Shown here piece after piece: positions 17,658 to 29,180 of a stretch of DNA of 64,000 nucleotides. The stretch spans positions 1 to 64,000 of the forward strand of contig JADBYQ010000002.1 in assembly GCA_020402945.1 (NCBI GenBank), written 5' to 3'. A model generated the notes under the pieces. It saw nothing but the letters and a program-made list of their open reading frames with translations. It was not told where the DNA came from and searched no databases. The position numbers and the translations under genes are program-made. The DNA comes from Cytophagales bacterium (GTDB taxonomy: Bacteria; Bacteroidota; Bacteroidia; Cytophagales; Cyclobacteriaceae). How positions within the stretch are numbered: the stretch's first letter is position 1; each line of letters starts with the position of its first letter.

Positions 17658-19460
17658 ATGACAAAATCAAATTTACTACTCATTGGGTTGCTTATTATTT
17701 TGGCATCTTGTTCCACACGAAAAGAGAAAATCCCCGAAACACCAGCTATGCCCGGAAAATCAGAAAAGATGATCATCTATCAGATGATGACACGGTTGTT
17801 TACCAACACCAATACTACCAACAAGTCCTACGGAACTCTCCAAGAGAATGGTGTTGGAAAAATGAATGATATCAACGAGACTGCACTGTTGGGTATCAAA
17901 GAGCTGGGAGTTACCCATGTTTGGTACACCGGCATAATCGAACATGCATTGCTCACAGATTATACTGAATTTGGAATACCCTTAGATGATGCAGATGTGG
18001 TAAAAGGAAGGGCGGGGTCCCCCTATGCCATTAAAGATTATTACGATATCAATCCTGACCTAGCAGTAAATGTGAAGAACCGGATGCAGGAGTTTGAACA
18101 ATTGGTCGAGCGCACGCATCAAGCACAGATGAAAGTGATCATTGACTTTGTCCCCAATCACGTGGCACGCTCCTATAAAAGTGATGCATTACCAGAAGGC
18201 ACGAAGGACCTGGGCCTGGGCGATGACAAAACGGTTTCATTCAAGCCAACGAATAACTTTTATTACTTGCCCGGTCAATCTTTTCAGCCTCCGGAAGGAT
18301 ACAATTCGTTGGGCCCTAATACTTTTCCTACAAAGGACAAGAAATACACAGAACAGCCTGCTAAAGTAACTGGTAATGACCAATTCACTGCTACTCCGGG
18401 AATCAACGAATGGTTTGAGACCGTCAAGCTCAACTACGGTGTTGATATTCAAGATAATAGAAAAACTTACTTTGATCCCATTCCCGATACATGGATTAAA
18501 ATGAAAGATATCCTGGTCTTTTGGGCAAACAAAAAAGTGGATGGCTTTAGGTGCGACATGACTGAAATGGTTCCGGTCGAGTTTTGGCATTGGGCAGTAC
18601 CTCAGGTGAAAGCGATCAATCAAGACATCATTTTCGTTGCGGAGATTTATAATCCGAATGAATACCGTAACTATTTAATAAACGGGCATTTTGATTTCCT
18701 ATACGACAAAGTGCAGTTGTACGATATGCTTCGTTTGCTTGTCAATCAACACGCACATGCTGTTGGTATTCCGCAAATCCAAGAAAGCTTGAAAGGCGTG
18801 AACCACCAGATGTTACATTTCCTGGAAAATCATGATGAGCAGCGAATTGCTTCACCAGCCTTTGCCGGTGATCCTTGGAAGGCTGTGCCAGCGATGGTAG
18901 TTAGCGCAACGATCGATCAATCTCCGGTAATGATTTACTTTGGTCAGGAAGTGGGTGAACCCGGTGCGGGAGCTGAAGGATTTGGTGGTGAAGACGGACG
19001 CACAACTATTTTTGATTATTGGGGTGTGCCTCAACATCAAAAATGGGTGAACAATGGAAAGTTTGATGGAGGCCAGTTGAGCGTTGAGCAAAAGCAACTG
19101 CGTCAATTTTATGGTGATATTTTAAAACTCTGTTCAACCAACCAGGCGATTGCCCGTGGCAATTATTTTGACCTCACCCTTCCATGTTTACAACAGTCTG
19201 CCATTTCACCTTTTGTAAGCGTGTTCGCCAGATGGGATGGAGAAGAAAATCTTGTTATCATTTCAAACTTCAATTCAAACCTGGAGAAGGTTAAAGTTTC
19301 CATACCCGATGAGTTGGCTTCAGCCATGAAATTGGAAAAAGGAAAGGCTTATGTTGGTCGAGATTTATTGCGAAGTGGGGCTGAAATTGGATTCAATGAA
19401 TCGCTGGTTGCGGAATTCGAGCTGCCAGCCTATAGTTCATTTATACTAAAAATTAAATAG
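17658..19460 (+). CDS. Alpha-amylase family (GH13) lipoprotein
   Basis: 600 residues. A lipoprotein signal (LLIILASC, lipidation at Cys18) points to the periplasm or outer membrane. The GH13 barrel follows: DFVPNHVA (region I, near residue 162), GFRCDMTEM with the nucleophile Asp300 (region II), FVAEIY with acid/base Glu329 (region III) and ENHDEQR with Asp393 (region IV). All three catalytic residues are present, so it should be active. A C-terminal beta domain ends the protein. The substrate is not clear; a maltodextrin-releasing amylase or transferase feeding the downstream cluster is an inference. It starts a five-gene run with gaps of 3, 3, 16 and 47 bp. Confidence 0.88.
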   Translation: MTKSNLLLIGLLIILASCSTRKEKIPETPAMPGKSEKMIIYQMMTRLFTNTNTTNKSYGTLQENGVGKMNDINETALLGIKELGVTHVWYTGIIEHALLTDYTEFGIPLDDADVVKGRAGSPYAIKDYYDINPDLAVNVKNRMQEFEQLVERTHQAQMKVIIDFVPNHVARSYKSDALPEGTKDLGLGDDKTVSFKPTNNFYYLPGQSFQPPEGYNSLGPNTFPTKDKKYTEQPAKVTGNDQFTATPGINEWFETVKLNYGVDIQDNRKTYFDPIPDTWIKMKDILVFWANKKVDGFRCDMTEMVPVEFWHWAVPQVKAINQDIIFVAEIYNPNEYRNYLINGHFDFLYDKVQLYDMLRLLVNQHAHAVGIPQIQESLKGVNHQMLHFLENHDEQRIASPAFAGDPWKAVPAMVVSATIDQSPVMIYFGQEVGEPGAGAEGFGGEDGRTTIFDYWGVPQHQKWVNNGKFDGGQLSVEQKQLRQFYGDILKLCSTNQAIARGNYFDLTLPCLQQSAISPFVSVFARWDGEENLVIISNFNSNLEKVKVSIPDELASAMKLEKGKAYVGRDLLRSGAEIGFNESLVAEFELPAYSSFILKIK

Positions 19461-19463
19461 TTC

Positions 19464-21410
19464 ATGCAAGGGAAGTCGAGAGTAATTATTGAGAATGTTC
19501 AACCCATAGTAGATGGCGGATTGTTTCCCGCAAAGCGAACCGTTGGTGAATCGGTTATTGTTTCTGCTACGATTTTTGGCGATGGTCACGATCACATTCG
19601 CGCCTCTGTTCTTTACAAGAAGGCAGGTGCTAATCAATGGAAAGTGGTTGAACTGCAACCTACATTTAATGATGACTGGTCTGCGTCTTTTTTGGTAGAC
19701 GAGCAAGGCACGTATATGTTCACGATACATGCCTGGGTCGATCATTTTGATACCTGGTATGATGGATTCAAAAAGAAAGCAGCCGCCAAAATCGATGTGA
19801 AGGTGGAATTGATGGAGGGCGCCATTTTCCTAAAGACACTGGCAGAAAATGGGAAGGCGAATTTGCTTAACCTCGCCACGAAATTGGAGGACACTAGTAA
19901 ACACAAAGAAGCGGTTGACCTGGTACTCAGCGAGGGTTTTTCACAGATTGTTAAAGATTATCCCCTCAAGGAAAATGAAACACGCCTGGATGAGGAGGTT
20001 GAAATTGTGGTTGAGCATAAAAAAGCAAACTTCAGTGCTTGGTACGAATTTTTTCCGCGATCCAGCTCATTCGAACTTGGCAAGCATGGCACGTTTCAAG
20101 ATTGCATCCGGCTTTTGCCACGGGTAGCTGCGATGGGTTTTGATGTGTTGTATTTCCCACCGATTCATCCCATTGGCAAACTCAACCGAAAAGGAAAAAA
20201 TAATAATGTAAAGGCACAGAAAGGAGAGCCTGGTTCTCCCTGGGCGATCGGCAGTGACGAAGGAGGGCACAAGTCGATTCTTCCAGCGTTAGGTACGTTG
20301 GAGGATTTCAAAAAATTAATTGAGGAAGCAAAGAAACTTGGAATTGATATTGCCATGGACATTGCTTTTCAGTGTGCACCCGACCATCCATATGTAAAGG
20401 AACATCCAGATTGGTTTAAACAGCGACCAGATGGCTCTATTCAGTATGCTGAAAATCCGCCAAAGAAATATCAGGATATATATCCGTTCAATTTTGAAAC
20501 AGACGATTGGAAGAATTTGTGGGACGAACTTCGGTCTGTGTTCTTCTACTGGATAGAACAAGGTGTCACGATTTTTAGAATAGATAATCCGCATACCAAG
20601 CCGATTCCATTTTGGCATTGGGTAATCATCGAGGTGCAAAAAGTACATCCTGATGTTATCTTTCTCGCGGAGGCATTCACAAGGCCAAGGATCATGGCCT
20701 CGTTGGCGAAAGTTGGGTTTACTCAATCGTATACTTATTTCACCTGGCGAGTTAGTAAAGCCGAAATCATTGAGTACATGAATGATTTAGTTTATGGACC
20801 GTCAAGAAATTATTTCCGCCCGAACTTCTGGCCCAATACGCCTGATATTCTGCCCTATCATTTACAGATGAAAGGAGAGAATAGCTTTTTGTTTCGCTAC
20901 GCCCTTGCAGCTACGCTTTCTTCTAACTATGGCGTTTACGGACCATCCTACGAATTTCTGGAAAACATGCCGATAGAAGGCAAAGAAGAATACTATAATT
21001 CTGAAAAATATGAAGTGCGTCATTACGATTGGAAAAGAACCAATAGAATGACCGATATCATGAGCTTGCTGAACAAAGTGCGAAAAGAAAATGCGGCACT
21101 TCAATCTACCTGGAATATGCAGTTCTGCCCAATCGAAAACGATCAATTGATAGCGTATATAAAAGCCACCGATGACTTGTCGAACATCATTTTAATCGTG
21201 GTCAACTTAGATCCAAATGGAAAACAATCTGGTTACGTGCAACTGCCAAAAGCGCGTCTCAGACTCGGTGATAAGATCAATCTAAAATTGAAAGACCTCA
21301 TCACTGGCGAATATTATACATGGACACAAGAGTGGAATTTTGTGGAGCTGAACCCGAACAAAATCCCTTTTCATGTAATGCAGCTGGAAATTCACGAGTC
21401 AAACATGTAA
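19464..21410 (+). CDS. glgE: Alpha-1,4-glucan:maltose-1-phosphate maltosyltransferase
   Basis: A 648-residue cytoplasmic GH13 enzyme that extends alpha-1,4-glucans by maltosyl units from maltose-1-phosphate. The N-terminal beta domain and helical insert (1-190) are typical. YFPPIHPIGKLNRKGKNN near residue 227 and GSPWAIGSDEGGHK near 253 are GlgE signatures. The catalytic pair is Asp374 in FRIDNPHTKP and Glu403 in LAEAFTRP, 29 residues apart as in Streptomyces GlgE. It lies 3 bp from both neighbours, so it is translated from the same message as the TreS-Mak fusion that should supply its donor. Confidence 0.96.
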   Translation: MQGKSRVIIENVQPIVDGGLFPAKRTVGESVIVSATIFGDGHDHIRASVLYKKAGANQWKVVELQPTFNDDWSASFLVDEQGTYMFTIHAWVDHFDTWYDGFKKKAAAKIDVKVELMEGAIFLKTLAENGKANLLNLATKLEDTSKHKEAVDLVLSEGFSQIVKDYPLKENETRLDEEVEIVVEHKKANFSAWYEFFPRSSSFELGKHGTFQDCIRLLPRVAAMGFDVLYFPPIHPIGKLNRKGKNNNVKAQKGEPGSPWAIGSDEGGHKSILPALGTLEDFKKLIEEAKKLGIDIAMDIAFQCAPDHPYVKEHPDWFKQRPDGSIQYAENPPKKYQDIYPFNFETDDWKNLWDELRSVFFYWIEQGVTIFRIDNPHTKPIPFWHWVIIEVQKVHPDVIFLAEAFTRPRIMASLAKVGFTQSYTYFTWRVSKAEIIEYMNDLVYGPSRNYFRPNFWPNTPDILPYHLQMKGENSFLFRYALAATLSSNYGVYGPSYEFLENMPIEGKEEYYNSEKYEVRHYDWKRTNRMTDIMSLLNKVRKENAALQSTWNMQFCPIENDQLIAYIKATDDLSNIILIVVNLDPNGKQSGYVQLPKARLRLGDKINLKLKDLITGEYYTWTQEWNFVELNPNKIPFHVMQLEIHESNM

Positions 21411-21413
21411 TGT

Positions 21414-24400
21414 ATGCCGACTGGAAAAAACAACCCGCTTTGGTTTAAAGATGCCATCATTTATGAGCTGAGCGTCAGGGCATTTTATGATAGTAATAGT
21501 GATGGTATTGGTGATTTTCCAGGCCTTGTTCAAAAGCTCGATTACCTTGAGGATCTTGGCATAAACACCATTTGGCTCTTGCCGTTCTTTCCTTCTCCGT
21601 TGAAGGATGATGGCTTCGATGTAAGCGAGTACTGTGATATTCATCCGGACTATGGCACGCTGGCAGACTTCAAATTATTTTTGAAAGAGGCCCATCGCAG
21701 GGGACTCAAAGTTATCACTGAGCTGATATTGAATCATACATCCGATCAGCATCCATGGTTTCAGAAGTCGAGAAAGGCACGATCGGGTTCGAAATACAAA
21801 GATTACTACGTTTGGAGCGATACGACCGATAAGTACAAAGAAGCACGCATCATGTTTCAAGATGATGAAGCTTCTAACTGGGCGTGGGACAATGAAGCAA
21901 AAGCCTACTTCTGGCATCGCTTCTATCGACACCAGCCCGAGTTGAATTTCGACAATCCAGAGGTACAGTTGGAAATGATTAAGGTGGTTGATTTTTGGAT
22001 GAAGATGGGCGTAGATGGATTTCGGTTGCCCTCAGTACCATTTTTATTTGAAGAGGAAGGAACAAATTGTGAGAACCTCCCGCAAACGCATGCCTTTCTA
22101 AAACGTCTGCGCTTGCACATCGACAAGCATTACGAAGATCGTGTACTAATCGCTGAAGCAAACCTATGGCCTGAGGATGCTGCGCAATACTTTGGGGAAG
22201 GCCAAGAGTGTCACATGAGCTTTAATTACCCATTGATGCCTCGGCTATTTCTTGGCTTACGTACAGAAGATAGTTATCCGATCATTGATATCATTGAACA
22301 GACACCTCAAACACCACCCAATAGTCAGTGGGCTCTTTTTTTAAGAAACCATGATGAGATTGGTCTGGATATGGTGACCGAAGAGGAAAAAGACTACCTG
22401 TTTAAAGCGTACGCAAAAGATCCAAATACAAAACACAATGCAGGTATCCGAAGGCGACTTGCACCTTTGCTTAATAATGATAGACGCAAAATAGAATTGC
22501 TCTACACGATTATGTTTTCGTTGCCGGGCACTCCTGTTTTATACTATGGCGATGAGATTGGTATGGGTGATAATGTCTACTTGGGCGATCGATTTGGAGT
22601 GCGAACACCGATGCAGTGGAATGTTAACATCAATGCAGGGTTCTCAGACGCCAACCCACAGCGACTATTCTTGCCGGTAATCACTGATCCCGTTTATCGA
22701 TATGAATCGCTTAATGTTGCTACGTTAGAAGAAAATCCTTCCTCACTAGTGTGGTGGGTGAAAAATGTGCTGGCCATGCGCAAGCGATTAAACGTGTTCG
22801 GGCGCGGTGATTTAAAATTTATTGAGAGTTCCAATGCGAAGGTTCTATCTTTTGCAAGGACCTATCAAGATCAAAAAATCATTGTGGTTGCGAATTTGTC
22901 CCAGTTCTCCCAAGCGACAACGCTTAACCTTTCCGATTATAAGGATTGTGACGTTACCGAGGTTTTTAGCCAAAACAGATTTTTGAATGTGGGGGATGGC
23001 GAATATCCGATTACCATTGGCCCCTACGGTTACTTTTGGTTTCAGGCAGATGTGTCGGAAAAGAAAAATATATCTAACACCAGTACTGAATTATTTCTAT
23101 TCGAGACGGACATCTCTTGGGAGAAGTTGTTTAATAATTACAATGAGGTAAGAGTACTTGAACGAAAAATTTTACAACCGTTCATGAAAAAGTGCCGTTG
23201 GTTTGGCGGCAAAGCGAAGGTCATCAGCAAGATGAACATCCACAAAGTTATACCGGTGAAGGTGGATGGGGAAACTCATTTTATGACCATTATTCAAGTT
23301 GACTATGTGCAACGCTTGCCGGAATTGTATTTTTTGCCGATGTGTTTTGTCCCTACAGACAGCATGTTTGACAAGGTAGAGTACACTGCTCAGAGCGTAA
23401 TCAGCAGAGCCGAGATACAGGGTAAAGCCGGGTTTATATTAGATAGCAGCTACGACCGTACGTTCCGCGATTTCTTGTTCGGAAGTATGGATCGCAAAGT
23501 AAGAATCAAAGACGAGGGCGGCACACTCGAATTTAACTCAAGCATCTATACCAAACTGAATGCCGACAAGATAGAATCAAAAATTTTGAAAGCAGATCAG
23601 AGCAACACCGCCATTATTTACAATGATCAGTTCTTTTTCAAGTTCTATCGAAAGATTGAAAACGAGATCAACCCCGATTTAGAGATTGTTAGGTTCCTTT
23701 CAGAAAACACAAATTTTAGAAACGCGCCAAAGTATGCAGGAAGCATCGAGTATCGCGACAATGAAGGGAAGACAACGGTGTTTGGACTCTTGCAAGAGAA
23801 AGTAGAGAATCAAGGAGATTCATGGGTAATGACTATTGATTCAGTAGGCCGTTTTTACGAACGAGTAATTGCGAAAGCAAAGAAAGAAAAGTTGCCCAAG
23901 CTAATCAACCGGGACGCAATTAAGTTTGAGGAAGCTCCGGAATTGATACAAGAGTTTATCGGGCGAGGGTTTTATGAGAGAGTAGTACGGCTGGGTCAGC
24001 GAACTGCCGAAATGCATTTGGCGCTCGCTTCCGACAGTGTGACGCCTGCCTTTTCTCCGGAGTACTTCACTGCAAACTACCAACGTTCTCTTTACTCAAC
24101 CTTGCGAAAGTTATTGCGCGATCGATTTAAACTTTTAGAGCAAACAATGCCCAAGTTAGATCTTGAGACGCAAAAATTAGGTAAAGAAGTATTGGAAATG
24201 GAAGACACCATTTTGGAATGCTTTAGCCTTATTTATCAAACCAGAATTAATGCGATAAAAACCCGTATCCATGGAGATTACCATTTAGGGCAGGTACTTT
24301 TTACAGGCAAAGATTTTATTATCATTGATTTTGAAGGCGAACCGGGATTTAGTTTTAGTGAACGAAGACTTAAAAAGAGTCCGCTGAAAGACGTTGCTGG

Positions 24401-24740
24401 CATGATGCGCTCATTTCATTATGCTGCCTTTGGAAAAATTCTACTCAACGAAAACTATAGAGAAAAAGACATTGAATTTTTAGAGCAGTGGGCCGAGCAG
24501 TGGCAGCATTATGTTAGTCGTTTTTATCTGGGCGCCTATCTCGAAAAAATGGGAATGGGAAAATCTCTTTCACCGGAGGGTGAGATATTAATTCGAACGT
24601 ACCTGTTAGAAAAAGCGGTCTATGAATTAGGCTATGAATTAAACGGCCGCCCGGATTGGGTAAATATTCCACTGCGAGGTATTCGCTATCAGATGCGAAG
24701 GTATCTGGAAGCGAAAGAATTAAGCAAGAAAAAGAAATAG
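21414..24740 (+). CDS. treS: Trehalose synthase / maltokinase fusion, nucleophile missing in the TreS domain
   Basis: 1108 residues. Residues 1-545 are a GH13 TreS domain that would isomerise trehalose and maltose; residues 570-1108 are a maltokinase (Mak/Pep2) that makes maltose-1-phosphate for GlgE. The kinase part is complete: HGDYHLGQ near residue 954 and IDFEGEP near 970. In TreS, region I (LNHTSD), acid/base Glu248 (LIAEANLWPED) and Asp314 (RNHDE) are present. Region II reads VDGFRLPSVPFL where the family has VDGFRLDAxPYL: the nucleophile Asp is Pro206 (CCC, 22029-22031), which needs two base changes, and the next Ala is Ser. The rest of the domain is well conserved with no frameshift. 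The isomerase is therefore probably inactive or altered, with the domain kept as a partner of the kinase. Confidence 0.93.
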   Translation: MPTGKNNPLWFKDAIIYELSVRAFYDSNSDGIGDFPGLVQKLDYLEDLGINTIWLLPFFPSPLKDDGFDVSEYCDIHPDYGTLADFKLFLKEAHRRGLKVITELILNHTSDQHPWFQKSRKARSGSKYKDYYVWSDTTDKYKEARIMFQDDEASNWAWDNEAKAYFWHRFYRHQPELNFDNPEVQLEMIKVVDFWMKMGVDGFRLPSVPFLFEEEGTNCENLPQTHAFLKRLRLHIDKHYEDRVLIAEANLWPEDAAQYFGEGQECHMSFNYPLMPRLFLGLRTEDSYPIIDIIEQTPQTPPNSQWALFLRNHDEIGLDMVTEEEKDYLFKAYAKDPNTKHNAGIRRRLAPLLNNDRRKIELLYTIMFSLPGTPVLYYGDEIGMGDNVYLGDRFGVRTPMQWNVNINAGFSDANPQRLFLPVITDPVYRYESLNVATLEENPSSLVWWVKNVLAMRKRLNVFGRGDLKFIESSNAKVLSFARTYQDQKIIVVANLSQFSQATTLNLSDYKDCDVTEVFSQNRFLNVGDGEYPITIGPYGYFWFQADVSEKKNISNTSTELFLFETDISWEKLFNNYNEVRVLERKILQPFMKKCRWFGGKAKVISKMNIHKVIPVKVDGETHFMTIIQVDYVQRLPELYFLPMCFVPTDSMFDKVEYTAQSVISRAEIQGKAGFILDSSYDRTFRDFLFGSMDRKVRIKDEGGTLEFNSSIYTKLNADKIESKILKADQSNTAIIYNDQFFFKFYRKIENEINPDLEIVRFLSENTNFRNAPKYAGSIEYRDNEGKTTVFGLLQEKVENQGDSWVMTIDSVGRFYERVIAKAKKEKLPKLINRDAIKFEEAPELIQEFIGRGFYERVVRLGQRTAEMHLALASDSVTPAFSPEYFTANYQRSLYSTLRKLLRDRFKLLEQTMPKLDLETQKLGKEVLEMEDTILECFSLIYQTRINAIKTRIHGDYHLGQVLFTGKDFIIIDFEGEPGFSFSERRLKKSPLKDVAGMMRSFHYAAFGKILLNENYREKDIEFLEQWAEQWQHYVSRFYLGAYLEKMGMGKSLSPEGEILIRTYLLEKAVYELGYELNGRPDWVNIPLRGIRYQMRRYLEAKELSKKKK

Positions 24741-24756
24741 TGTTAAATCCAATTTT

Positions 24757-26721
24757 ATGAGCAAAAAAGTAGCATCAAAAAGCAAGACTGAAAAACCGAA
24801 ACACTTCAGTTTATTGACTGATTTTGACATTCATTTGTTCAGATCCGGTAAACACTTTAAGTTATATGAAAAGTTTGGTGCGCACACGGCCACCTTCAAC
24901 GATCAGCCAGGTACCTACTTCGCAGTCTGGGCACCCAATGCAAGAGTTGTTTCCGTTATTGGAAATTTTAATCAGTGGACAGATAATAAGCATAAACTTA
25001 CTCCTCGTTGGGATGAGTCGGGAATCTGGGAAGGTTTTTTCGCGGGCATTGGCAAAGGTGAAGCCTACAAATATGCCATTCACTCAAACACAGGTGAGTA
25101 TTTGGAAAAAGCTGATCCCTTTGCTTTTTATGCGGAGATTGCTCCGGCCACCGCTTCTATCGTGTGGGATCATGAATACAAATGGAAAGACAGCGTGTGG
25201 ATGGATGAACGAAAAAAATCGATTGGAAAACCGAAGCCGTACTCCGTTTATGAGGTGCATTTGGGAAGTTGGAGAAGGAAAGTAGAGGATGGAAATCGTT
25301 CATTAAGTTATAAGGAGCTTGCCGATGAACTGGTCTATTATGTGAAAGAAGCAGGCTACACGCATGTCGAACTACTGCCAGTGATGGAGCACCCGTTTTT
25401 TGGCTCATGGGGCTATCAACTGACGGGTTATTTTGCTCCGACCAGTAGATTTGGAAATCCTCAGGAATACATGGAGCTCATAGATACTTTCCACAAAGCT
25501 GACATCGGAGTGATATTGGATTGGGTGCCTTCGCATTTTCCAGGGGATGCACATGGCTTGTACAAATTTGATGGCACCAACTTGTACGAGCATGCTGATC
25601 CACGAAAAGGATTTCATCCAGATTGGAGCAGTTACATTTATAACTATGGACGAAACGAAGTAAAGTCGTTCCTGATCAGCAATGCTTTATTTTGGATAGA
25701 TGTATTTCATGCCGATGGGTTGCGTGTTGATGCTGTGGCCTCGATGCTGTATCTGGATTACTCCAGGAAAGCAGGGGAGTGGATCCCCAATCAATATGGT
25801 GGCAACGAAAACCTGGAAGCGATTTCGTTCTTGAAAGAGTTCAATGAAGTAGTTTACGCCAATCATCCTGATGCCGTAACGATCGCGGAAGAGTCAACGG
25901 CATGGCCCAGCGTTTCAAAGCCGACCTATTTGGGAGGATTAGGATTTGGACAGAAATGGATGATGGGATGGATGCACGATACACTCCGCTATTTTAAGTT
26001 AGACCCCATACACCGTAAGTATCATCAGGACGAGATTACATTCAGTATTATCTACGCGTTCACCGAAAACTTCATGCTGCCATTGTCACATGATGAGGTA
26101 GTCCATGGAAAAGGTTCATTGTTGGGCCGTATGCCCGGTGACGAATGGAGAAAGTTTGCCAATTTACGATTGATGTTTTCATACATGTTTACTCACCCTG
26201 GCACTAAATTGGTTTTTATGGGGGGCGAATTTGGTCAGACCTCTGAATGGAATCATGACCGAAGTATCGATTGGGATGCATTAAACTATGCTCCGCATCA
26301 GGGCACTCTTAAGCTAACCAAAGATTTGAATGCTCTTTACAAGAATGAAACGGCACTGTATAAATATTCATTTGATGGAAAAGGTTTCGAATGGTCAGAC
26401 TATGGAGATCGTGAAAATAGTGTGATCGTTTATATCCGGAAAGCGGATAGCAAAGAGGAGTTGATGATGGTGGTTTGTAATTTCACACCAGCCACACGAC
26501 AACTTTATCGGATTGGGGTTCCCTACCGTGGCACCTGGAAAGAAGTATTTAACTCAGACGATAGCAAGTATGGAGGCAGCGGAGTATTAAACGCTGGGTT
26601 ACTGTATACAACACCTGTTAAGTATCACGGTAAAGATAATTCGGTTGCCATCACCCTGCCACCATTGGGCATGACGATTTTAAAGCTCAATGAGGAAATG
26701 GCTGAATTCGATTTAGATTAA
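24757..26721 (+). CDS. glgB: 1,4-alpha-glucan branching enzyme
   Basis: A 654-residue GH13 enzyme that adds alpha-1,6 branches to the glucan made by GlgE. Order of parts: a CBM48-type domain with TYFAVWAPNARVVSVIGNFNQW near residue 50, the barrel with VYEVHLGSWRR near 165, GSWGYQLTGYFAPTSRFG near 218, nucleophile Asp325 in DGLRVDAVASMLYLDY, acid/base Glu378 in IAEESTAWP, and LPLSHDEVVHGKGSL near 446. All catalytic residues are intact. Residues 1-25 are Lys-rich and divergent. Length is typical of bacterial GlgB lacking the extra N1 module. Fourth gene of the cluster. Confidence 0.97.
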   Translation: MSKKVASKSKTEKPKHFSLLTDFDIHLFRSGKHFKLYEKFGAHTATFNDQPGTYFAVWAPNARVVSVIGNFNQWTDNKHKLTPRWDESGIWEGFFAGIGKGEAYKYAIHSNTGEYLEKADPFAFYAEIAPATASIVWDHEYKWKDSVWMDERKKSIGKPKPYSVYEVHLGSWRRKVEDGNRSLSYKELADELVYYVKEAGYTHVELLPVMEHPFFGSWGYQLTGYFAPTSRFGNPQEYMELIDTFHKADIGVILDWVPSHFPGDAHGLYKFDGTNLYEHADPRKGFHPDWSSYIYNYGRNEVKSFLISNALFWIDVFHADGLRVDAVASMLYLDYSRKAGEWIPNQYGGNENLEAISFLKEFNEVVYANHPDAVTIAEESTAWPSVSKPTYLGGLGFGQKWMMGWMHDTLRYFKLDPIHRKYHQDEITFSIIYAFTENFMLPLSHDEVVHGKGSLLGRMPGDEWRKFANLRLMFSYMFTHPGTKLVFMGGEFGQTSEWNHDRSIDWDALNYAPHQGTLKLTKDLNALYKNETALYKYSFDGKGFEWSDYGDRENSVIVYIRKADSKEELMMVVCNFTPATRQLYRIGVPYRGTWKEVFNSDDSKYGGSGVLNAGLLYTTPVKYHGKDNSVAITLPPLGMTILKLNEEMAEFDLD

Positions 26722-26768
26722 GCAAAAACGTCATTTTTGGTAGTGTTTTCACCTAATTGATTTTACGA

Positions 26769-29180
26769 GTGGCTTCCAATAAATTTATCTGCATACATGG
26801 GCATTTCTATCAACCGCCTCGCGAAAATGCTTGGTTAGAGGTAATTGAGATTCAAGATAGCGCACATCCCTATCACGACTGGAATGAGCGGATTAGTGCA
26901 GAGTGCTATGGCCCCAACACAGCTTCCCGAATTCTGGATAAAGAAGGGGGTGTGATAAAGAATATCACCAACAATTACGCGCGCATCAGCTTTAACTTTG
27001 GACCAACACTTCTCTCTTGGATGGAAGTGTATGACAAAGAAACATACGAGGGCATTTTAGAAGCGGATCGAGAGAGCATCGAACGTTTCGATGGGCATGG
27101 TTCAGCGATGGCACAGGTATTTAATCACATGATTATGCCGCTCGCTAATCGAAGAGATAAGGAGACCCAGGTGATTTGGGGTATCCGCGATTTCGAGAAG
27201 AGGTTTAAACGGAAACCAGCAGGTATGTGGCTGGCAGAAACCGCGGTTGATACGGAGTCACTGGAGATTTTGGCAGAGCAGGGTATTTCATTTACTGTCC
27301 TTGCTCCACGGCAGGCAAAGGCATTCAGGAAAATAGGAGATAAAGATTGGATAGGCGTAAATGATCAGACCGTTAACACACGCAAGTCCTATCGTTGTCA
27401 CCTGCCTTCAGGTAAAAGTATTATCCTCTTTTTTTATGACGGAAATATCTCTCAGTCGGTTGCGTTCAACGGATTGCTAAACGATGGGAGGGGTTTTGCA
27501 GAGCGATTGATTAACGCATTGGATCAAAGCGATCAATCTCATCAACTGGTACACATTGCTACGGATGGTGAAACATATGGTCACCATCATAAGCATGGGG
27601 AAATGGCGCTTGCTTTCGCGCTCGATTTTATTGAAAAGCATAAAGATGTAAGTTTAATCAACTACGCATCTTATGCCGCCCAATTTGAGCCGGAATTAGA
27701 AGCACAGATCATTGAAGATAGTTCGTGGAGTTGTGTGCATGGCGTAGAGCGTTGGCGCGAAAACTGTGGATGCAACTCAGGAAAGCCAGGGTATACACAA
27801 ACGTGGCGAAAGCCGCTGCGGGATGCGCTCGATTGGTTGAGGGATACTCTGTGTGTTATTTTTGAGTCTGAGGCGAGCAACTTTTTTAAAGATCCCTGGG
27901 AAGCCCGAAATGAATACATCAAAGTTGTATTGAAGCGAACCGATGAGAACGTCAACCGATTTATTCGATTGCAGGGTCTCAACGAACAGATTGATGTGAA
28001 TAAAGCACTGCGATTGATGGAGCTCCAGCGTCACGCGATGCTGATGTACACGAGCTGCGGTTGGTTCTTTGATGAAATTTCGGGTATTGAAACCGTGCAG
28101 GTTATTCAATATGCCTGTAGGGCGATTCAGCTTTCCAAGCAGCTTACCGAAAAAGACTTAGAGGCTGAATTTTTAACACGGTTAGAGTTGGCTCCAAGTA
28201 ATGTGGCCACCTACGAGAATGGTGGAAACGTTTTTCGCAAACTGGTATTACCTTCAAAGACAAATTTGACAAGAGTGGGAATGCACTATGCCGTTTCTTC
28301 TATTTTCGAAGATGACCCTGAAAACCTTCCCTTATTTAATTACAAAGCAACCAATGAGTTTTTTGTAAAAAAGGAAGCTGGAGAACAGAAGCTCGTTACG
28401 GGTATAACCAAAGTACAGTCGCTGGTAACACGGTCCGAAAAGAAATTTGCGTTTGCCGTAATCTATCTTGGCAAGCACGATCTGATAGGTAACCTTTCGC
28501 TTGATATTGAACTGGACAATTTCTTTGGGATGCAGTTTCGGATGGTGAACGCATTCGAGGAAGGGCGCTTGGCGGATGTAATAAGCATTATGCAAACCTA
28601 TTTCGGATCGGAGAAATATTCGATCTGGTCATTATTTAAAGAAGAGAAGCGAAAAATCCTTGATGCCATTTCCCATCAGGGGATGGAAGATTTAGAAAGT
28701 TCTCTTCGTAGAACGTATAACAGAGATTACCCTTTGGTCAATGCGCTATCAAATAATGATATTCCTATTCCAAAAGCTTACCGCACAACTTTTGAGTATA
28801 TTCTCAATGCAGATCTATTGAGATGTTTTCAACCTGATAAAATAAATGTAAAATCGGTGGAGAGAATAGTTACTGAGCTGGATCATTGGAATTTAAAAAT
28901 TGAAGACACAGACAAAGTCGAACGATTGGCTGGCGATAGTATCTTTAAAGAGATCAAAAGAGTAAGAGCTGAGCGCCATAATGTGAAAAGAATTGAGCGG
29001 CTAAACCGACTTTTCCCAGTGATGAGAAAATTTAAACTCGACCCTAATCTTCATCAAAGCCAGAATCTCTATTTTGAAATGTCTGTAGAAAACAAGGGTA
29101 GTAAGATGCAAGATCTTCCAGAAGAATGGATCAGTCAATTCAATTTACTGGGCGATAACTTGGGAGTAAAAGTAGAGTAG
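26769..29180 (+). CDS. GH57 family glycoside hydrolase with DUF3536 domain
   Basis: About 803 residues. The N-terminal half is a GH57 barrel: CIHGHFYQPPRENAWLE at the start, the nucleophile Glu157 in MWLAET and the likely acid Asp266 in ATDGETYGHHH. The C-terminal half (about 350-800) corresponds to DUF3536, an all-helical region found with this GH57 type. No signal peptide, so cytoplasmic. Known GH57 enzymes act on alpha-glucans as amylases, amylopullulanases or branching enzymes; the exact reaction here is not known. GTG 26769 is chosen over TTG 26757 because homologues begin close to the KFICIHGH strand. Last gene of the glucan cluster. Confidence 0.88.
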   Translation: MASNKFICIHGHFYQPPRENAWLEVIEIQDSAHPYHDWNERISAECYGPNTASRILDKEGGVIKNITNNYARISFNFGPTLLSWMEVYDKETYEGILEADRESIERFDGHGSAMAQVFNHMIMPLANRRDKETQVIWGIRDFEKRFKRKPAGMWLAETAVDTESLEILAEQGISFTVLAPRQAKAFRKIGDKDWIGVNDQTVNTRKSYRCHLPSGKSIILFFYDGNISQSVAFNGLLNDGRGFAERLINALDQSDQSHQLVHIATDGETYGHHHKHGEMALAFALDFIEKHKDVSLINYASYAAQFEPELEAQIIEDSSWSCVHGVERWRENCGCNSGKPGYTQTWRKPLRDALDWLRDTLCVIFESEASNFFKDPWEARNEYIKVVLKRTDENVNRFIRLQGLNEQIDVNKALRLMELQRHAMLMYTSCGWFFDEISGIETVQVIQYACRAIQLSKQLTEKDLEAEFLTRLELAPSNVATYENGGNVFRKLVLPSKTNLTRVGMHYAVSSIFEDDPENLPLFNYKATNEFFVKKEAGEQKLVTGITKVQSLVTRSEKKFAFAVIYLGKHDLIGNLSLDIELDNFFGMQFRMVNAFEEGRLADVISIMQTYFGSEKYSIWSLFKEEKRKILDAISHQGMEDLESSLRRTYNRDYPLVNALSNNDIPIPKAYRTTFEYILNADLLRCFQPDKINVKSVERIVTELDHWNLKIEDTDKVERLAGDSIFKEIKRVRAERHNVKRIERLNRLFPVMRKFKLDPNLHQSQNLYFEMSVENKGSKMQDLPEEWISQFNLLGDNLGVKVE

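Follow-up and report, generated by a model that had tools for sequence, protein, structure and literature searches.

Which function is left to a trehalose synthase (TreS) domain that has lost its catalytic nucleophile? This question is raised by a gene in the 64,000-nucleotide stretch of DNA from a Cytophagales bacterium analysed here (contig JADBYQ010000002.1, positions 1 to 64,000; the window in what follows). The gene, denoted treS*-mak (21414-24740, + strand), encodes a fusion of 1108 residues in which a TreS domain is joined to a maltokinase (Mak, or Pep2), and proline occupies the nucleophile position of its TreS half. On balance, our sequence comparisons favour the reading that the GlgE pathway of one Cytophagales clade no longer depends on trehalose, and that the fusion acts there as a maltokinase whose altered TreS half (TreS*) binds sugar and serves as a structural or regulatory partner.

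The TreS half of the fusion lacks the region II nucleophile

Both halves of the open reading frame pass the NCBIfam cut-offs of their families. The fusion scores 830 bits with TIGR02456 (TreS; cut-off 678; match over residues 10-544) and 436 bits with TIGR02457 (kinase half; cut-off 375; match over residues 577-1091). The nucleophile-free TreS domain spans residues 1-546 (21414-23051, +) and the maltokinase half approximately residues 580-1108 (23151-24737, +). We take the TreS domain to be of the GH13_16 type (glycoside hydrolase family 13, subfamily 16). The same label is applied to a predicted TreS in PMC11206854. Among proteins of solved structure, trehalose synthases are nearest in sequence (5x7u ranks first), and the two that were aligned residue by residue carry Asp at the nucleophile position.

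Region II of the window protein (22011-22046, +) is encoded by GTA GAT GGA TTT CGG TTG CCC TCA GTA CCA TTT TTA and reads VDGFRLPSVPFL in place of VDGFRLDAxPYL. Codon 206 (CCC, 22029-22031, +) specifies Pro at the catalytic nucleophile position and codon 207 (22032-22034, +) specifies Ser, so that the protein lacks the Asp nucleophile expected in region II of the TreS family. The acid/base Glu248 (22155-22157, +) and the transition-state stabiliser Asp314 (22353-22355, +) are present, as are the kinase motifs. These data bear out a sequence-only reading of the window, which had described the Asp to Pro change, a frame open over 1108 codons and the conservation of Glu248, Asp314 and the kinase half. 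That reading treated Pro206 as a trait of one protein; the change is real but is in fact clade-wide, being shared in kind by 65/65 distinct full-length fusions of the clade. It also raised a possible sequencing error at 22029-22034. This is ruled out, together with an assembly error at codon 206: two other assemblies (loci L034 and L035; 99.9% and 99.5% identity) carry the identical PS at 206-207, and the Asp-less state recurs across many assemblies (65 distinct full-length fusions).

No second intact TreS was found in the bacterium's own genome, where the match ranked next is an ordinary glucosidase-like GH13 protein; this paralogue (L002) reads RLDVISAISK, with the Asp present. The double displacement of TreS forms a covalent intermediate on the region II Asp (PMC4257617). 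Lacking Asp206, the domain cannot form this intermediate, and we infer that the fusion would be unable to turn trehalose into maltose, or the reverse, by the TreS mechanism.

Extent and origin of the nucleophile loss

Region II was read in loci of the own genome and 58 relatives, in the best 80 of 310 confirmed stretches from a species collection (84,980 species, each represented by one genome), and in an order sample (all 83 matching genomes of 390). After removal of duplicates, 157 distinct fusions were retained, 152 full length and 5 partial. Asp206 is absent from 65/152 full-length fusions, the window's own included, and is replaced by Pro (29), Ala (20), Ser (10) or Gly (6). The other 87, called Asp-type below, have Asp-Ala at 206-207. 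Ala207 is thus present in 87/87 Asp-type fusions, whereas the clade has Ser (54) or Asn (11) at this position. The 5 partial fusions belong to the clade and likewise lack Asp206. Identity to the window protein is 73.1-100% for Asp-less and at most 53.9% for Asp-type fusions, so that the two ranges do not overlap. The clade includes named isolates (Chryseolinea, Ohtaekwangia, Chryseosolibacter, Dawidia, Parachryseolinea and Pseudochryseolinea) and many metagenome bins.

In a phylum sample, TIGR02456 matched in 103/395 genomes, 4 of which are clade members, and nucleophile loss was not seen in any of the 50 non-clade places read there (one a repeat, L199); all keep Asp. Other phyla were covered only through the few named Asp-type loci among the best 80 of 310 stretches. 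Four stand-alone TreS-like proteins (L228-L231, in genomes G593, G064, G626 and G555; frames of 572-628 residues) fall below the TIGR02456 cut-off. Their motifs are RVDAVPF or RLDAVPF, GEANV and NHDE(L/I)DLG, and they perhaps form a separate TreS-like family.

A FastTree tree built without the region II columns has a single change between Asp and Asp-less states (support 100), and trees of the TreS half and of the Mak half, each alone, also give a single change. On these trees the nucleophile was lost once, before the sampled clade diversified. Since then at least 16 further changes have occurred at residue 206 within the clade, every state being Pro, Ala, Ser or Gly. By a rough codon count, 39% of one-step amino-acid changes would be expected to land on these four residues and 4% on Asp. 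Residue 206 seems to be held small and non-acidic.

The sequence-only reading regarded the TreS domain as retained and proposed a test for purifying selection, which turned out to be strong. Over 7 close clade pairs, the ratio of nonsynonymous to synonymous substitution rates (dN/dS) has a median of 0.012 in the TreS half and of 0.016 in Mak. The corresponding values for 48 Asp-type pairs of the same dS range (0.15-1.2) are 0.061 and 0.133, both pair sets being small and unlike in make-up. Pseudogene decay of the TreS half is ruled out by the low dN/dS and the open frame.

Trehalose and maltose genes in the clade

We compared 57 genomes, 27 Asp-less and 30 Asp-type, in each of which region II had been read. 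TreY was over its cut-off in 0/27 clade genomes vs 29/30 Asp-type genomes, OtsA in 2/27 vs 30/30, and the GH77 enzyme MalQ was present in 0/27 vs 30/30. GlgE is found in 27/27 clade genomes. DUF3536 occurs in 27/27 clade and 17/30 Asp-type genomes, and full-length GH65 in 26/27 and 20/30. The TreS-Pep2 route is described as beginning from trehalose in the review PMC11046441. It needs a trehalose supply (OtsA, or TreY with TreZ) and a TreS with its nucleophile. In the clade the nucleophile is absent and the supply is largely missing, as judged by OtsA and TreY; the genome-wide searches did not extend to TreZ or trehalose uptake.

The sequence-only reading had argued that the GlgE route would need maltose from another source. 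This part fits the distribution of TreY (0/27), MalQ (0/27) and OtsA (2/27), and the conserved amylase-family and GH57 neighbours of the fusion. According to PMC8084333, maltose from MalQ can enter TreS/Pep2 of P. aeruginosa with the TreS step skipped. The clade would likewise supply maltose to the kinase without TreS action, but the P. aeruginosa route is GH77-based and runs as a second route beside an active TreS. MalQ is ruled out as the maltose source of the clade by the absence of GH77 from the 27 clade genomes, and a GH57-DUF3536 protein is the candidate instead. PMC11206854 suggests that a GH57-DUF3536 protein encoded in a GlgE locus of Pontibacter acts as a 4-alpha-glucanotransferase.

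In the pathway that we propose, maltose would be released from alpha-glucan by the lipoprotein GH13 enzyme or enzymes of the cluster and by the GH57 glucanotransferase-like protein. Mak would phosphorylate it to maltose 1-phosphate, which GlgE would polymerise, and GlgB would branch the product. Less certainly, the kinase may need the TreS domain as a docking and oligomerisation partner, and the retained TreS pocket may bind glucose or maltose and thereby tune the kinase.

Two described fusions, P. aeruginosa PA2152 (PMC8084333) and the Estrella lausannensis TreS-Mak (PMC11046441), share with the clade the domain order, both TIGR families, a glgE neighbour and intact kinase motifs. Both are described in these sources as active on trehalose, whereas the clade has Pro, Ala, Ser or Gly at the nucleophile site and mostly lacks trehalose-making genes. 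In the mycobacterial TreS:Pep2 complex (PMC6509496), TreS physically partners the maltokinase as it does in the clade, but as a separate protein and not as the nucleophile-free part of a single chain. The same source describes M. tuberculosis TreS as raising Pep2 activity, without a channel. Judged by titles and abstract openings, with subscription journals mostly outside, no report of a nucleophile-less TreS or TreS-Mak was found.

The GlgE pathway is described as leading from trehalose to glycogen, and a clade that includes named isolates seems to run it without trehalose or a working TreS, yet retains the TreS half of the fusion. This raises two questions: what purpose the fusion or complex of TreS with Mak serves, and whether Mak is under the control of TreS beyond receiving its substrate from it. 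If our reading is true, the NCBIfam model name maltose alpha-D-glucosyltransferase would be wrong for the clade.

Conservation of the sugar pocket in the TreS half

Roles of pocket residues were taken from the description of the Deinococcus radiodurans trehalose synthase in PMC4257617 and mapped onto the fusions by motif. The clade shares with this enzyme the residues of the -1 glucose site and triad network, bar Asp209, and the closure residues Arg148, Glu223 and Asn253. It replaces Asp209 and Ala210 in 65/65 fusions, Tyr213 in 61/65 and Ile150 in 42/65 (Deinococcus numbering). Counted as alignment cells, the -1 site and triad network minus the nucleophile are kept in 645/650, the closure network in 309/390, and 193 other conserved columns of the TreS domain in 11074/12545. 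At the +1 subsite (Ile150, Ala210, Tyr213, Glu320 and Glu324), 148/325 cells are kept and only Glu320 is invariant; compared with the background columns this site is changed (p 0.005-0.06, depending on the threshold). The clade thus has the Glu acid/base and Asp stabiliser of the TreS family and departs from it at the +1 subsite. His108, Arg204, Arg393, the acid/base and the stabiliser are each kept in 64-65/65 clade fusions (Glu248 in 64, Asp314 in 65). The +1 Tyr is Phe in 61/65; in the Deinococcus enzyme, the variant with Ala at this Tyr is described as inactive (PMC4257617). By these counts, the catalytic core is preserved except for the nucleophile and the place of the leaving glucose.

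Two further observations concern this domain. At codon 176 (21939-21941), the motif QPDLN reads QPELN; the residue is Asp in 87/87 Asp-type fusions and Glu in 64/65 clade fusions. L082 is the sole clade member of the 65 in which the acid/base Glu248 is replaced by Asp (VADANQWPEE).

Loss of the active site in the GH13 fold has a known precedent in the amino-acid transporter heavy chain 4F2hc, which has this fold without glycosidase function, most of the catalytic site being gone. Both proteins keep the fold after catalytic loss, but the clade changes only one catalytic residue and the +1 site.

The kinase half and fusions with the opposite loss

Asp955 of the HGD motif (24276-24278, +), the putative catalytic base of the kinase, is present in 65/65 clade fusions, and so is each of Asp972, Glu974, Lys1067, Tyr1070 and Tyr1074. 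These residues were equated with mycobacterial ones by motif and not by alignment. In the account of PMC4306142, the HGD Asp is the catalytic base, the DFE motif forms the Mg site, and a Lys and two Tyr bind maltose. The kinase half therefore combines TIGR02457 membership with the active-site residues of the Mak/Pep2 family.

The mirror image of the clade was also observed. In 26/87 Asp-type fusions (L032, L103, L166-L168 and L170-L190; L169 is not among them) the kinase motif is degenerate, with at least 3 changes on the tree, and the TreS triad is kept in all 26. The degenerate forms are HGN or HGQ, Gln960 to Lys or Asn, and DFE to DFG or SFE. Over nine kinase-site positions, 105/234 cells are kept in these 26 fusions vs 546/549 in the other 61. 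Identity to consensus is 48% for the degenerate kinase halves, which are more diverged overall, and 63% for the TreS half of the clade. The degenerate kinase halves are thus eroded, in contrast to the TreS half of the clade, which retains its core. It seems from this comparison that either half can lose its site while the fusion persists, and the two groups together are natural separation-of-function candidates of both kinds. As judged by coordinates, glgE is unlinked in 22 of the 26 degenerate-kinase fusions (family code f11). It was not found in genomes G052, G189 and G238, which carry such fusions, nor in G214, which carries L169.

Weighing of the alternative explanations

Several observations weigh against a GlgE pathway uncoupled from trehalose with a sugar-binding TreS half. 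OtsA is retained by two clade genomes (G031 and G268). It is also missing from 14/24 same-family genomes without a detected fusion (10/24 have it), and because of this patchiness its loss is not specific to the clade. Moreover, the gene losses and the nucleophile loss were inherited in about one lineage, so that their co-occurrence counts as little more than one evolutionary event. Chryseosolibacter histidini, C. indicus and Dawidia soli are reported in PMC9296434 not to grow on D-maltose, and two of the three also not on glucose. The GH13 protein of the cluster is lipoprotein-like and so extracytoplasmic, whereas Mak is presumably cytosolic; no maltose importer was identified, none having been searched for. 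The ratio of TreS to Mak distances is about 0.83 in the clade vs 0.33-0.45 in other fusions (Mak distances above 0.1). A relaxed TreS half was considered as its cause and rejected on the low dN/dS of both halves in close pairs, and the higher ratio is read as a slower Mak. The AlphaFold model is weak at the TreS pocket: its mean predicted local distance difference test score (pLDDT) is 73.8, its predicted template modelling score 0.50, and pLDDT is below 50 at residues 140-158, 310-352 and 378-441, which places the pocket geometry outside its reach. Finally, a column-wise comparison shows no better conservation of the -1 site than of 193 other conserved columns (Fisher p 0.29-0.69). An apparent enrichment with a list of 13 residues (844/845 cells; Fisher p 0.04 and 0.01) was discarded, as this list was picked post hoc and the list based on the paper is not significant.

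The last of these points bears on an alternative that is possible, if less probable than the reading we favour: the TreS half could be a passive pseudoenzyme scaffold that only docks and stabilises the kinase, its functionless pocket being conserved for folding. Since the -1 site does not stand out from the conserved core, such a structural reason for pocket conservation is possible. Docking of the kinase on the C-terminal domain of TreS in the mycobacterial complex (PMC6509496) agrees with this explanation, and the 26/87 Asp-type fusions with a degenerate kinase motif suggest that dead partner halves are tolerated. Those same kinase halves have, however, kept just 105/234 active-site cells, though they are more diverged overall, and in TreS* the acid/base, the stabiliser, His108, Arg204 and Arg393, whose known job is catalysis or sugar binding, are kept in 64-65/65. 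The restriction of position 206 to small residues across at least 16 changes also speaks against a merely passive role. The sequence-only reading had proposed a scaffold or an allosteric partner; the purely passive version fares less well with the -1 site and acid/base kept in 645/650 cells.

It is unlikely that the TreS domain is still an enzyme, working without the Asp nucleophile. In such an enzyme, for example, phosphate or another small nucleophile could occupy the Asp206 space by the unpaired Arg204, giving an inverting phosphorylase or synthase, or hydrolysis could proceed slowly with inversion. The small residues at 206, the kept acid/base, Arg204 and stabiliser, and a +1 site altered as for a new reaction would all suit such an enzyme. 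GH65, among whose members are maltose phosphorylases that form beta-glucose 1-phosphate, is full length in 26/27 clade genomes, but also in 20/30 Asp-type genomes. In the laboratory, retaining glycosidases mutated at the nucleophile can carry out reactions of this sort; we know of no natural GH13 example. Against it, four residue types at 206 are unusual for a catalytic position, and no clade-specific conserved basic residue was recognised near the nucleophile in a site list read without a structure. One detailed version, which we consider quite unlikely, is that the small residue 206 creates an anion site by Arg204 where phosphate or beta-glucose 1-phosphate would enter, and that an inverting reaction would make or split maltose and hand it to the fused kinase. 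If true, evolution would have produced in TreS* a natural equivalent of the glycosynthases made in the laboratory. It is very improbable that isomerisation continues in the domain on a different nucleophilic side chain. The rest of the triad is intact and OtsA persists in 2/27 clade genomes, but the clade-specific conserved acids of the TreS domain (D75, D79, E183, E440 and D546, and E176 and E323, both from D) all lie outside region II. Moreover, Phe replaces the +1 Tyr in 61/65 fusions, the Deinococcus variant with Ala at this Tyr being inactive, and TreY is absent (0/27) and OtsA rare.

Gene neighbourhood of the fusion

In the window, treS*-mak lies in a cluster of genes on the + strand. 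A GH13 alpha-amylase-family lipoprotein (17658-19460), with its catalytic triad present and a lipobox LASC recognised by eye, is the candidate maltose source. It is followed by glgE, the maltosyltransferase gene (19464-21410; PF11896 and PF21702; triad D374, E403 and D461 placed by motif). Downstream of the fusion lie glgB, encoding the branching enzyme (24757-26721; NCBIfam GlgB models above cut-off), and the gene of the GH57-DUF3536 protein (26757-29180; PF12055 and PF03065). The glgE, mak and glgB genes of the GlgE glycogen pathway are thus together.

This arrangement was compared in 65 named clade loci, which include partial ones and are not the same set as the 65 full-length fusions. glgE is directly upstream of the fusion in 64/65; in L045 (= G035) it is not beside the fusion and lies on another contig (C24). 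The GH13 lipoprotein gene is upstream of glgE in 52/53 clade loci with room (the exception is L086) vs 0/9 Asp-type loci with room, and a search by best hit gave no such open reading frame in any of the 15 named Asp-type loci. Downstream of the fusion, the 54 clade loci with room have glgB in 53/54 and the GH57 gene in 54/54. In the Asp-type named loci, glgE is adjacent in 11/15; the GH57 gene is downstream in 1/12 with room and upstream in some others. Adjacency of glgB was dropped as a mark of the clade, as the strict Asp-type count of 2/12 is too low: glgB also stands beside the fusion in L098, L100, L104, L105 (cut), L106 and G404/L248.

G404, an Asp-type genome of the same family, carries malQ, treY, the GH57 gene and treZ on one side, and glgE, treS-mak and glgB on the other. 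G268, which branches separately at the clade's unresolved root, carries a cluster of a GH13 lipoprotein homologue (59% identical), a second GH13 gene, glgE, treS*-mak, glgB and the GH57 gene. Relative to G404, the trehalose-forming genes are gone from this clade cluster.

A second GH13 gene, of about 515-545 codons, lies between the GH13 lipoprotein gene and glgE in 28/65 named clade loci (e.g. L040, L056 and L058) and also in L249 (G268); it is missing from the window's own subclade. In the three that were read (L040, L056 and L058), its product is lipoprotein-like, has the Asp nucleophile and is 29-31% identical to the TreS half. The GlgC-GlgM route to maltose 1-phosphate would call for a full-length GT5 synthase (GlgM/GlgA). 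A strong match to GT5 (PF08323, the N-terminal part of glycogen synthase) was obtained in 57/57 genomes, in frames of only about 270-320 residues (e.g. G000:C105:8033-8695). Weaker GT5 matches fall in longer frames in some genomes, and a half-length GlgA-like protein is perhaps the rule.

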